NCBI GenBank assembly: GCA_003696125.1
Contig: RFHZ01000055.1
Location: forward strand, 1-6,604
Source of the DNA: Nitrospinota bacterium
Lineage (GTDB): Bacteria > Tectomicrobia > Entotheonellia > J063
Length of the DNA stretch: 6,604 nucleotides
Direction of reading: 5' to 3'
This document shows positions 1,989 through 6,604 of this stretch, piece after piece. The notes beneath the pieces were generated by a model. That model did no database searches and had not been told where the DNA came from. It was given only the letters and a program-made list of their open reading frames with translations. The number at the start of each line of letters is the position of its first letter. The stretch's first letter is position 1. The position numbers and the translations under genes are program-made.

Positions 1989-2862
1989 ATGTTATTTGTT
2001 GTGGTCGAACAGATCATAAACGGCTTGTTAGTCGGCGCCTACTATGTGTTGCTGGCCCTGGGGCTATCGCTGATCTTCAGCCTGGGGGGGGTGGTCAATA
2101 TGGCGCACGGGGCGTTTTACGCCCTGGGAGCCTATTTCGCCTATGAAGTGCAGCGATGGACCGGATTTTTTGGGGCCATGGTGATCGCCCCTGTCGGTGT
2201 CGCCTTGCTCGGCGTGTTGATCGAAACCCTCTTTATCCAGCGATTTTACCAGGAAGATCCGGCCCTTTCCCTCCTCTTTACCCTTTGGACTGGCCATGAC
2301 GGCAGAGCAGAGCATCCGGTTGATCTGGGGGGCAACCGGCTTGCCCTTCTCCATCCCTAAAGCCTTGCGAGGAGCGATCTTTCTCGGAGAGTTCATCTAT
2401 TCCTATTACCGCCTGACGGTACTGGTAATCGTGATCGTCACCGTCCTCGGCGCCTGGCTCCTCCTCTACCGGACCCCCTTTGGCATGATCGTGCGGGCCG
2501 GCACACGTGACCCGGAGATGGTACGCGTCCTGGGTATCAGCCTGCGGCCGGTGCTCACCTCCATCTTTGCCCTGGGTATCGCCTTTGCCGCCCTGGCCGG
2601 TGTCATGTCGGCGCCGCTGGCCGGTGTACAGCCGGCCATGGGTACCGAGATCCTGACCGCAGCGTTCGTGGTGGTGGTGATCGGTGGGCTCGGGAGTTTC
2701 TGGGGGGTCATCTGCGCCGGGGCACTGGTCGGTATCGCCCGGGGCATAACCGTGCTCATCTATCCACCGGCTACCGAAGCTTCCATGTATGCCCTCATGA
2801 TACTGGTCTTACTCCTCCGTCCCCGTGGCCTGATGGGGGAGAGGTTTGAACGCCTGGAATAG
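1989..2862 (+). pseudogene. livH: LivH-type branched-chain amino acid ABC permease, split by a frameshift
   Basis: LivH is one of the two membrane subunits of the HAAT importer. The N-terminal part lies in the frame starting at ATG 1989, which by itself stops at 2360 after 123 codons. The rest lies in the next frame, open up to TAG 2860-2862 and with an ATG at 2296. Removing one C from 2281-2283 joins them into a 290-residue protein, the normal LivH length. The N-terminal part carries INGLLVGAYYVLLALGLSLIF and NMAHGAFYALGAY, the LivH hallmark. The C-terminal part carries the coupling loop RAGTRDPEMVRVLGISL, AGVMSAPLAGVQPAMG and IGGLGSFWGVICAGALVGI. Neither part has other stops or damage. It could be a sequencing error, a recent mutation or, less likely, recoding. 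ATG 1989 has only a weak upstream Shine-Dalgarno match. The 3' end overlaps the next gene by 17 nt if that gene starts at TTG 2846. Confidence 0.88.
2280..2288 (+). other. Frameshift site inside livH
   Basis: The upstream frame reads ACC CTT TGG here, while the family sequence continues in the frame TTT GGA CTG from 2284. One extra base, most simply a C in the run 2281-2283, accounts for the shift. CCCTTT occurs twice within 24 nt (2263-2268 and 2281-2286) in a pyrimidine-rich tract, a plausible slippage context for polymerases or sequencing chemistry. Confidence 0.8.
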
Positions 2863-5407
2863 AAGGAAAAAGCGAAAGGTGCGTATACCTCGTCATCCTT
2901 TACTGATCTATGCCCTCAGCCTTGTCGTGCTTCCCCACCTGCTGAGTGCCGCCGGCCTGATCCATGCCGTGGCCACGGAAATCGCCATCTTTGCCATGGT
3001 CGGCCTCGGCTTTAACCTGCTGCTCGGGTACACCGGTCTCCTCTCTTTCGGGCATGGCGCCTATTTTGGGCTGGCCGCCTATGCGGCTGCCCTCTTCCAG
3101 ATCCATCTGATGCCGGGAGGCTTCTTTGTGCCCATCCTGTTTGCCATCGGTTTTGCCGCTCTCTTGGGCCTGATTACCGGGTTTCTCGCCCTGCGCCGGC
3201 GCGGTGTCTACTTCTCCCTGTTGACCCTGGCCTTTACCGCCCTCATCTTCTACGTGGTCTACCGGTGGACCTCCTTTACCGGTGGGGAAAACGGGTTAGG
3301 TGGCATTACCCGTCCCCCTCTCCTCGGCATGGCGATCAACAACCAGTTGGTCTTCTACTACCTGGTGGCCTTCCTTACCTTCCTGGTGGCCTGGTTGATG
3401 TGGCGCGTTGTCGATTCTCCCTTTGGTCGTGTGCTGGTAGCGATTCGTGAAAACGAGCAGCGTGCCACCTTTATCGGTTACCCGGTACACCGGTACAAGC
3501 TACTCGCCTTTGTCTTATCGGCAACCGTGGTAGGATTCGGAGGGAGCCTGTTTGCCTTCCTCAAGTACTTCGTCTCCGCCGATCTCGTGCATCCCTTCTT
3601 CTCCGGGGAAATCCTGGCCATGTCGATCATCGGGGGGATGCGCAGCTTCCTGGGGCCTCCCTTGGGAGCAGCCTTCTTCATCGTGTTTCGCGAGGTCCTC
3701 TCCGAATATACCGATGCCTGGCTCTTCTATTTTGGCCTCCTCTTCATGGCCTTTATCCTCTTTTCCCCCACCGGGCTCATGGGGTTAGGGGAACGGATTC
3801 TGGCCCCCTGGCGCCGCAAGCAGGAGACCATTGCCGCCATGGCTGGCCGGATAAAGCCGCAACCGAGCCAGGAACTCCCCCCCTTCCTGCGGCCGGATAT
3901 CCCTGCTGCTTCTTCTGCCCTGCTCCAATGCCAGGGAGTGGTCAAGCGTTTTGGAGGCTTTGTGGCCGTCTCTGATGTCACCCTGCAGGCCTATGCGGGG
4001 CGGCTCCAGTCTGTTATCGGCCCTAACGGTGCCGGCAAGACAACGCTCTTTAATGTCTTCTCCGGGATGTATCCCCCCGATGCCGGTAGCGTGCACTTCC
4101 TGGGAGAACGGATCGATGGCCTCTCTCCTGACCGGATTGTGGCCCGGGGATTGGCCCGCTCCTTCCAGATCACCAATCTCTTCCAGGATCTCACCGTGTA
4201 CGAAAACCTCCGCCTGGGTATCCAGGCCCATCACCCCAACCGCTTCCATCTCCTGCGGCGTGCCGACACCCTGCCCACGGTGCATGAGGAGACAGAGGAG
4301 CTTATCCGCTTCCTGGGACTGGAAGGGTTAGAACAGGCCCTGGTCTCCAACCTCTCCTATGGGGGACAGCGGCTGTTGGAGATCGGTTTAACCTTAACCG
4401 CAAAACCGAAAGCCATCATGCTCGACGAGCCTTTGGCCGGGTTGGCGGCGGCGGAACGGGAACGGGTGACCGGTCTCATGAAGCTCCTGGCCCGGCAGAT
4501 GGCTGTGCTGGTCGTGGAGCATGACATCGATCGTGTCTTTGCCTTCTCCGATGCGATTACGGTCATGAACGACGGCCGGGTGCTGGTGGATGGTCCTCCT
4601 GCCGTGGTGCGGAACCATCGCGAGGTGCAGGAGGTGTACCTCGGTAGCGGACGCAAATCGATGATTCAGGTGCAAAAGCCCCGGAAGAAGGCGGAGGGAA
4701 AACCGATCCTCACCCTCAAGGAGGTGAATACCTTTTACGGGAAGAGCCATATCCTCTACGACGTCTCCTTAGAACTCCGTGACAATGAGGTGGTGGCCCT
4801 GCTCGGACGCAACGGGGCAGGGAAATCATCGACCCTCCGGAGCATCATGGGCCTGTCCCGACCACGGCAGGGACACATCTTCTTCGAGGAGACAGAGATC
4901 ACCGGCAGAACACCGGAAGCCATTGCCCGTCTCGGTATCCGCCTGGTACCGCAGGGACGACGACTCTTCCCGAACCTGACCGTGGCCGAAAACCTGGCTC
5001 TCGGCCGGCTGAAGCGAGGACCCAAAGAGGGGGTGCATTGGGATGAGGAGCAGATCTTTCGTTACTTTCCCCGGGTAAAGGAGCGCTTACACTTCCGGGC
5101 CGATATCCTCTCCGGAGGCGAGCAACAGATGGTGGCGATTGCCCGTGCCCTGAGCGGTAACGTCAGGTTGTTGCTCCTGGATGAGCCCTTTGAGGGACTG
5201 TCTCCTGCCCTGACCGAAGAGGTGTTTCACTGCATCAATCAACTCCGGGAAACGATCCCCATACTGCTGGTCGAACACGATCTCGATCTGGCCCTCTCCT
5301 TAGCCGATCGTGTCTACGTGCTGGATCGAGGGCACATCACCTATGAGGGACCGGCAGAACCGCTGCTTACCAATCTCGACTACCGCAAAGAGGTGCTGTG
5401 GGTATAA
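2846..5407 (+). CDS. livM/livG/livF: LivM-LivG-LivF fusion: permease plus two ATP-binding subunits of the importer
   Basis: A single 853-residue frame joins three subunits that are usually separate. Residues 1-325 are LivM: a basic N-terminus, several membrane helices, LGYTGLLSFGHGAYFGLAAY, TGGENGLGG (145-153) and a coupling loop AIRENEQRATFIGYP. Residues about 345-600 are LivG: Walker A GPNGAGKTT (392-400), Q-loop Q441, signature LSYGGQ (503-508), Walker B LDE (D527, E528) and H-loop H559. Residues about 617-853 are LivF: Walker A GRNGAGKSS (654-662), Q703, LSGGEQ (755-760), D779/E780 and H811. All ATPase residues are intact, so both nucleotide sites should work. The linkers (about 326-344 and 600-616) are short, polar and rich in Pro, Lys and Arg. 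The start is uncertain: TTG 2846 overlaps livH by 17 nt, and GTG 2879 would give 842 residues. The chain would sit in the inner membrane with both ATPases in the cytosol and pair with LivH. Confidence 0.93.
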   Translation: MNAWNRRKKRKVRIPRHPLLIYALSLVVLPHLLSAAGLIHAVATEIAIFAMVGLGFNLLLGYTGLLSFGHGAYFGLAAYAAALFQIHLMPGGFFVPILFAIGFAALLGLITGFLALRRRGVYFSLLTLAFTALIFYVVYRWTSFTGGENGLGGITRPPLLGMAINNQLVFYYLVAFLTFLVAWLMWRVVDSPFGRVLVAIRENEQRATFIGYPVHRYKLLAFVLSATVVGFGGSLFAFLKYFVSADLVHPFFSGEILAMSIIGGMRSFLGPPLGAAFFIVFREVLSEYTDAWLFYFGLLFMAFILFSPTGLMGLGERILAPWRRKQETIAAMAGRIKPQPSQELPPFLRPDIPAASSALLQCQGVVKRFGGFVAVSDVTLQAYAGRLQSVIGPNGAGKTTLFNVFSGMYPPDAGSVHFLGERIDGLSPDRIVARGLARSFQITNLFQDLTVYENLRLGIQAHHPNRFHLLRRADTLPTVHEETEELIRFLGLEGLEQALVSNLSYGGQRLLEIGLTLTAKPKAIMLDEPLAGLAAAERERVTGLMKLLARQMAVLVVEHDIDRVFAFSDAITVMNDGRVLVDGPPAVVRNHREVQEVYLGSGRKSMIQVQKPRKKAEGKPILTLKEVNTFYGKSHILYDVSLELRDNEVVALLGRNGAGKSSTLRSIMGLSRPRQGHIFFEETEITGRTPEAIARLGIRLVPQGRRLFPNLTVAENLALGRLKRGPKEGVHWDEEQIFRYFPRVKERLHFRADILSGGEQQMVAIARALSGNVRLLLLDEPFEGLSPALTEEVFHCINQLRETIPILLVEHDLDLALSLADRVYVLDRGHITYEGPAEPLLTNLDYRKEVLWV

Positions 5408-5429: not shown

Positions 5430-6604
5430 ATGACACAGGAAGACCTGGCGCGAGAAGTGTTGGCCGAGGTTTCCCAGGCCAAGCTGATGGAGTATACGGA
5501 GACCATTGCCCAGTGGATTCGACTCTCCGGGAGCCCGGAAGAACGTAAGGCCTTTGATTATGTCCAGCAGGAACTGGACCGGTACGGTTTTACCACCCAT
5601 CTCTATGAACCTGAAGCCTACATCAGCCTGCCGGAAGAGGCGAGACTCCAGGTGCTCTCCCCGGAACAACGGGAGATCAGGGCCATCACCCACTCCTTTT
5701 CCCTCTCCACCCCACCGGAGGGGATGGAGGGGGAGCTGGTGTACCAGACCTATCCGCTCTCTCCCCCGGAGAAAGGGGTGGATGTGTCGGGAAAGGTGGT
5801 GCTGCAGGATGGACGGGTCATGCCGGTCAAGGTGCTGGAGGCGGAGAAAGGGGGGGCGATCGCCCAGATCCATATCAGTGGTGAACACCTCCATGAGATG
5901 ATCGCTTCACCGGTATGGGGTACCCCTACGCCGGAGACCGCTTCCCTGCTTCCCCACTCCCCGATCATCTCCATCCTCTCCCGGGATGGAGATTACCTCA
6001 AGGAACTCCTGCGCAAGGGACCGGTCCGGGTTCGACTCTCTACCAAGACCTGGACCGGCTGGCGAAACATCCCGGTGCTGATCGCCGACCTGCCGGGTCA
6101 GATCGAAGCGGACACGTTTGTGATGTTCAGCGGACACATCGATTCCTGGTATTACGGAGCCATGGACAACGGCACGGCCAATGCCACCATGCTCGAAGTG
6201 GGACGGATCTTGGCCGGACACCGCCAGGCCTTGCGGCGTGGACTGCGCCTGGCTTTCTGGTCCGGCCACTCGCATGGCCGGTACGCCGGTTCCACCTGGT
6301 ACGCCGACACTTTCTGGGAAGAGCTGCATGACCGCTGTGTGGCCCATGTCAATGTCGATTCGGTCGGAGCCAAAGGGGCGACCATCCTCTCTGAAGCCTG
6401 CACCATGGCCGAGATGCGTGATTTCGCTTCTGCCATCATCGCCGAGCAGACCGGCCAGACCCTCTCAGGGAGACGCTTTGGCCGGGCCGGTGACCAGTCC
6501 TTCTGGGGATGTGGCATCCCCTCCCTCTTCATGTCCCTCTCCGAGCAACCCCCGGATAACTCCGAGGCGGCCCGGGCCTTTGCCCTCCTCACCGGTGGAC
6601 CTCC
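5430..6604 (+). CDS. M28-like zinc-dependent peptidase/amidohydrolase with PA-like insert (3' end outside window)
   Basis: ATG 5430 follows the importer gene by 22 nt with AAGGAGG (5416-5422) 7 nt upstream, so it is almost certainly cotranscribed. The frame stays open to the window end (391 residues seen). No signal peptide is visible (polar MTQEDLAREV start), so it should be cytosolic. Residues about 95-205 resemble a protease-associated (PA) domain: VDVSGKVVLQDG from 117 and PIISILSRDG from 178. From about 220 the M28 catalytic fold appears: GHIDS with metal ligand H236, AMDNGT with D246, NVDSVG with D310 and GDQSFWGCGIPS from 354. The place where M28 enzymes normally have the catalytic and metal-binding Glu-Glu pair reads GHSHGRYAGS (279-288), with Ser281-His282 instead. 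The last His ligand lies beyond the window. It would hydrolyse a peptide or amide bond in an imported compound, or have lost classic peptidase activity; the substrate is unknown. Confidence 0.85.
   Translation, partial: MTQEDLAREVLAEVSQAKLMEYTETIAQWIRLSGSPEERKAFDYVQQELDRYGFTTHLYEPEAYISLPEEARLQVLSPEQREIRAITHSFSLSTPPEGMEGELVYQTYPLSPPEKGVDVSGKVVLQDGRVMPVKVLEAEKGGAIAQIHISGEHLHEMIASPVWGTPTPETASLLPHSPIISILSRDGDYLKELLRKGPVRVRLSTKTWTGWRNIPVLIADLPGQIEADTFVMFSGHIDSWYYGAMDNGTANATMLEVGRILAGHRQALRRGLRLAFWSGHSHGRYAGSTWYADTFWEELHDRCVAHVNVDSVGAKGATILSEACTMAEMRDFASAIIAEQTGQTLSGRRFGRAGDQSFWGCGIPSLFMSLSEQPPDNSEAARAFALLTGGP

Follow-up and report, generated by a model that had tools for sequence, protein, structure and literature searches.

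A LivM-LivG-LivF fusion in a single open frame

The 6,604-nucleotide stretch of DNA analyzed here (hereafter, the window) carries a three-way LivM-LivG-LivF fusion, and this fusion is a further member of an established, annotated, and recurrent architecture rather than a one-off. We are highly confident that its product combines membrane and ATPase modules as a fused subunit of a Liv-like ABC importer, one of the hydrophobic amino acid and amide (HAAT) family. BPD_transp_2 permease sequence, two complete ABC ATPases with a LivG-type BCA_ABC_TP_C tail, and a Peripla_BP_6 protein in the same operon are all present.

The ORF listing of the window gives positions 2846-5407 of the forward strand as one open, stop-free frame of 853 codons. 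Pfam searches with this ORF matched residues 40-305 to BPD_transp_2 (E 9e-38) and residues 578-602 to BCA_ABC_TP_C, the LivG-type C-terminal tail, and also identified two ABC_tran stretches. The chain is made up of a LivM-type permease module (2879-3790), a first linker (3791-3913), a LivG-type ATPase module (3914-4651), a second linker (4652-4702), and a LivF-type ATPase module (4703-5404), all on the forward strand. Walker A, signature, and Walker B are complete in both ATPase modules, reading GPNGAGKTTL (residue 392), LSYGGQ (503), and IMLDEPLAG (524) in the first and GRNGAGKSS (654), LSGGEQ (755), and LLLDEPFEG (776) in the second. The first-pass annotation had described three modules with no separating stop and a full set of ATPase motifs in both halves, and the ORF, the Pfam architecture, and the motif readings bear out both points.

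The TTG at 2846 is the start of the longest ORF only. The conserved part of the related proteins starts with M-RIHPLL, which aligns with VRIPRHPLLIYAL (VRIPRHPLL) at the GTG at 2879. We therefore favor the GTG as the probable true start, which would give a protein of about 842 aa. The sequence AGAAGGA lies upstream of this codon, at about 2862-2868.

Distribution of the fused architecture

At least 29 other distinct loci encode the LivM, LivG, and LivF modules in one frame, with the architecture checked ORF by ORF. These 29 comprise 10 loci on Alphaproteobacterial plasmids and 19 in genomes. The plasmid-borne proteins are 39-56% identical to the window fusion, and 7 of the 10 are annotated as ATP-binding protein/permease. 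In our search of plasmid proteins, Alphaproteobacteria yielded matches that were full length and in one piece, with 52-56% identity; several carry the annotation "branched-chain amino acid ABC transporter ATP-binding protein/permease". The best genome matches reached 64-66% identity along the entire chain.

Among 386 genomes sampled broadly, only 3 besides the window's own had matches at E <= 1e-130. One of the three, G089, belongs to a class in which 27 of 95 genomes had long matches at this threshold. A pattern scan of genome contigs, with patterns built from one sequence, gave only two distant matches. Two loci (L047 and L048) were cut by contig ends. The single-chain architecture is thus uncommon across bacteria overall and frequent in some lineages. 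The earlier description of it as uncommon fits the broad sample, but it does not fit the G089 class or the 29 or more loci, some of which were already annotated. The possibility raised with it, that close relatives all have separate genes with stops, is contradicted by the 29 other loci, which are uninterrupted. Our literature search found neither a described three-way LivM-LivG-LivF fusion nor an experiment on any fused member. In passages of a Brucella ABC inventory, the IM and ABC components of HAA systems are listed as separate genes (PMC2821768).

Two-way fusions also occur, with LivG joined to LivF and LivM separate in one case (L036 2476-4011, 512 aa, in G101) and LivM joined to LivG in another (L016 1465-3234, 590 aa, in G023). 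Three further fused relatives have one in-frame TAG each (L043 2995-2997, L050 3025-3027, L057 2215-2217), located inside the LivG module and not in a linker. Glu is common in the other sequences at two of the three positions, and the TAG codons could have arisen by point mutation or sequencing error.

Descent of the fusion and genome of origin

As judged from sequence comparison, the fusion is inherited and no local accident. Concatenated modules from 30 fused loci, counting the window, and from 12 loci with separate or partly fused genes were placed in one tree, where the fused loci group together to the exclusion of the 12 with a FastTree support of 0.997. The separate-gene loci were drawn from the search returns as a sample, and a closer unfused relative may exist. 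The window, with its three modules in one open frame, is nested inside the fused clade beside L039-L042. Composite rows for L008, L043, and L050 had long branches in a wider tree and were left out of the final one. Selection was evaluated in two close pairs of relatives, where dN was below dS on counts too small to weigh.

The L039-L042 loci, from the same 95-genome class, resemble the window along the chain (64-66% identity), in the substrate-binding protein (74-75%), and in the two LivH halves (71-78%). They differ in having an intact livH and a higher GC content (68-72% vs. 60% in the window). We considered whether the window's contig had been misbinned from this class, the home of the closest relatives, and rejected this because its composition fits its own bin and not the high-GC relatives: its tetranucleotide correlation with the bin is 0.959, compared with 0.92-0.98 for the bin's own contigs and 0.34-0.77 for the loci of the fused relatives. 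The four other genomes of the window's phylum contained no full-length match, and horizontal acquisition of the fusion is therefore possible.

Integrity of the frame and of the adjoining livH

The gene order of substrate-binding protein, LivH, and fusion is kept in relatives, with the first two immediately upstream of the fusion. In the window, the substrate-binding protein (Peripla_BP_6, E 1.4e-73) is encoded at 618-1904 of the forward strand and begins with a twin-arginine-like leader (SRRQFLK); proteins at the same position in relatives are 43-75% identical to it in most cases and 33-36% in L032 and L033. In livH (1989-2862, forward strand), a frameshift of one base, located between 2283 and 2295, separates the gene into frames at 1989-2360 and 2296-2862, and both halves match BPD_transp_2. 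The conserved halves are separated by 13 nt in the window and by 12 nt in L062 and L024, among other relatives, and relatives hold both halves in a single frame.

This frameshift bears on how the fusion itself is to be read. An assembly or sequencing artifact that deleted stops or shifted frames between separate genes could in principle produce a single frame, and the window comes from a bin broken into 990 contigs, with 8% contamination, in which the gene next to the fusion does have a one-base frameshift. The same single frame, however, is found at 29 independent loci with up to 66% identity over the full length, and the linkers can be aligned with those of relatives. Alignment with the fused relatives keeps both linkers in frame, and neither linker has an indel in two close pairs of these relatives. 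The first linker contains an AAMAGR...PPFLRP motif that corresponds to the AAMAxR...FLR common to many relatives. It also contains the run of seven C at 3877-3883 that had been flagged for checking. Here the flanking frame, ELPPFLRPD, matches PSFLRD, PEFLRP, PPFLKP, and PDFLRG in relatives, so the alignment keeps the frame on both sides of the run and no indel is indicated. We regard an artifact as close to negligible in probability and reject it, given that fused relatives exist independently. The same livH defect could instead mark an operon in decay, with livH lost by frameshift, both halves being in one frame in relatives, and the fusion out of use. We consider this rather unlikely: the substrate-binding protein and fusion genes are intact, the downstream gene is open up to the contig end, and one extra base is also typical of error in a draft bin. 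The extra base thus reflects either an error in the draft genome or a loss of livH function; unless sequencing or assembly introduced the frameshift, the window operon would have no intact LivH. The proposal that LivH is the only separate inner-membrane partner of the fusion is true of the relatives, where LivH is intact, but livH in the window's contig is broken into two frames, which we read as a local defect or error.

The identity of the transporter was also weighed against a urea (Urt) system, since the whole fusion scores above the UrtD and UrtE equivalog cut-offs. These cut-offs are passed only by summing the two ATPase modules, which singly score 212.8 (UrtD cut-off 304.1) and 215.2 (UrtE cut-off 285.8). 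UrtC (160 vs. a cut-off of 296.2) and UrtA (90 vs. 492.75) also fall short. A urea transporter is accordingly very unlikely, and we rejected it on the single-module scores.

Predicted mechanism, relationship to known systems, and substrate

As a HAAT importer, the system would be expected to work as other members of the ABC importer family do. The binding protein would pass a small ligand to a pore that LivH forms with the LivM module, uptake would be driven by the LivG and LivF modules paired as an ATPase heterodimer, and the two linkers may simply tether the modules. Classical LivHMGF and other separate-gene HAAT systems, the LivG-type structure 1g6h, and the LivF-like structure 1ji0 belong to the same module families, but LivM, LivG, and LivF are separate proteins in the classical system and one chain in the window. 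The first-pass suggestion that a single chain fixes the stoichiometry of the two ATPases follows from this anatomy, but it adds little because the usual HAAT transporter is already thought to contain one LivG and one LivF. The significance is modest: the gene fusion is genuine and sets the ratio of LivM, LivG, and LivF at one each per chain, and a single-chain construct could ease structural work on HAAT importers, which otherwise have four different membrane/ATPase subunits.

Three RefSeq proteins annotated as branched-chain amino acid ABC transporter ATP-binding protein/permease, from Skermanella rosea (WP_203101472.1), Salipiger (WP_066111908.1), and Microvirga ossetica (WP_099515769.1), share with the window the three modules, a chain of about 840 aa, and the order of substrate-binding protein, LivH, and fusion, at 52-56% identity. 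They differ in belonging to another phylum and in having a divergent GntR regulator upstream of their operons. When the modules were scored singly, no curated equivalog cut-off was reached, including those of NCBIfam LivG, LivF, and LivM, so these models assign no substrate. The operons of Salipiger, Ponticoccus, and Microvirga ossetica run on into 3-hydroxyacyl-CoA dehydrogenase and 3-keto-5-aminohexanoate cleavage genes, which hint, as a lead only, that the ligand may not be a branched-chain amino acid. We suggest tentatively, as a possibility we do not favor, that the fused clade forms a HAAT subfamily with a function of its own, transporting something other than branched-chain amino acids, with the window's lineage being a further phylum that carries it.

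Where some of the RefSeq fusion operons have these two genes downstream, the window instead has an M28-family peptidase gene (5430-6602), which begins 22 bases past the fusion stop and is probably part of the same operon; it was not found near the fused relatives examined. At the opposite contig edge, positions 2-409 encode the C-terminal portion of a thiamine-pyrophosphate enzyme, with NCBIfam PRK08327 as the closest family.
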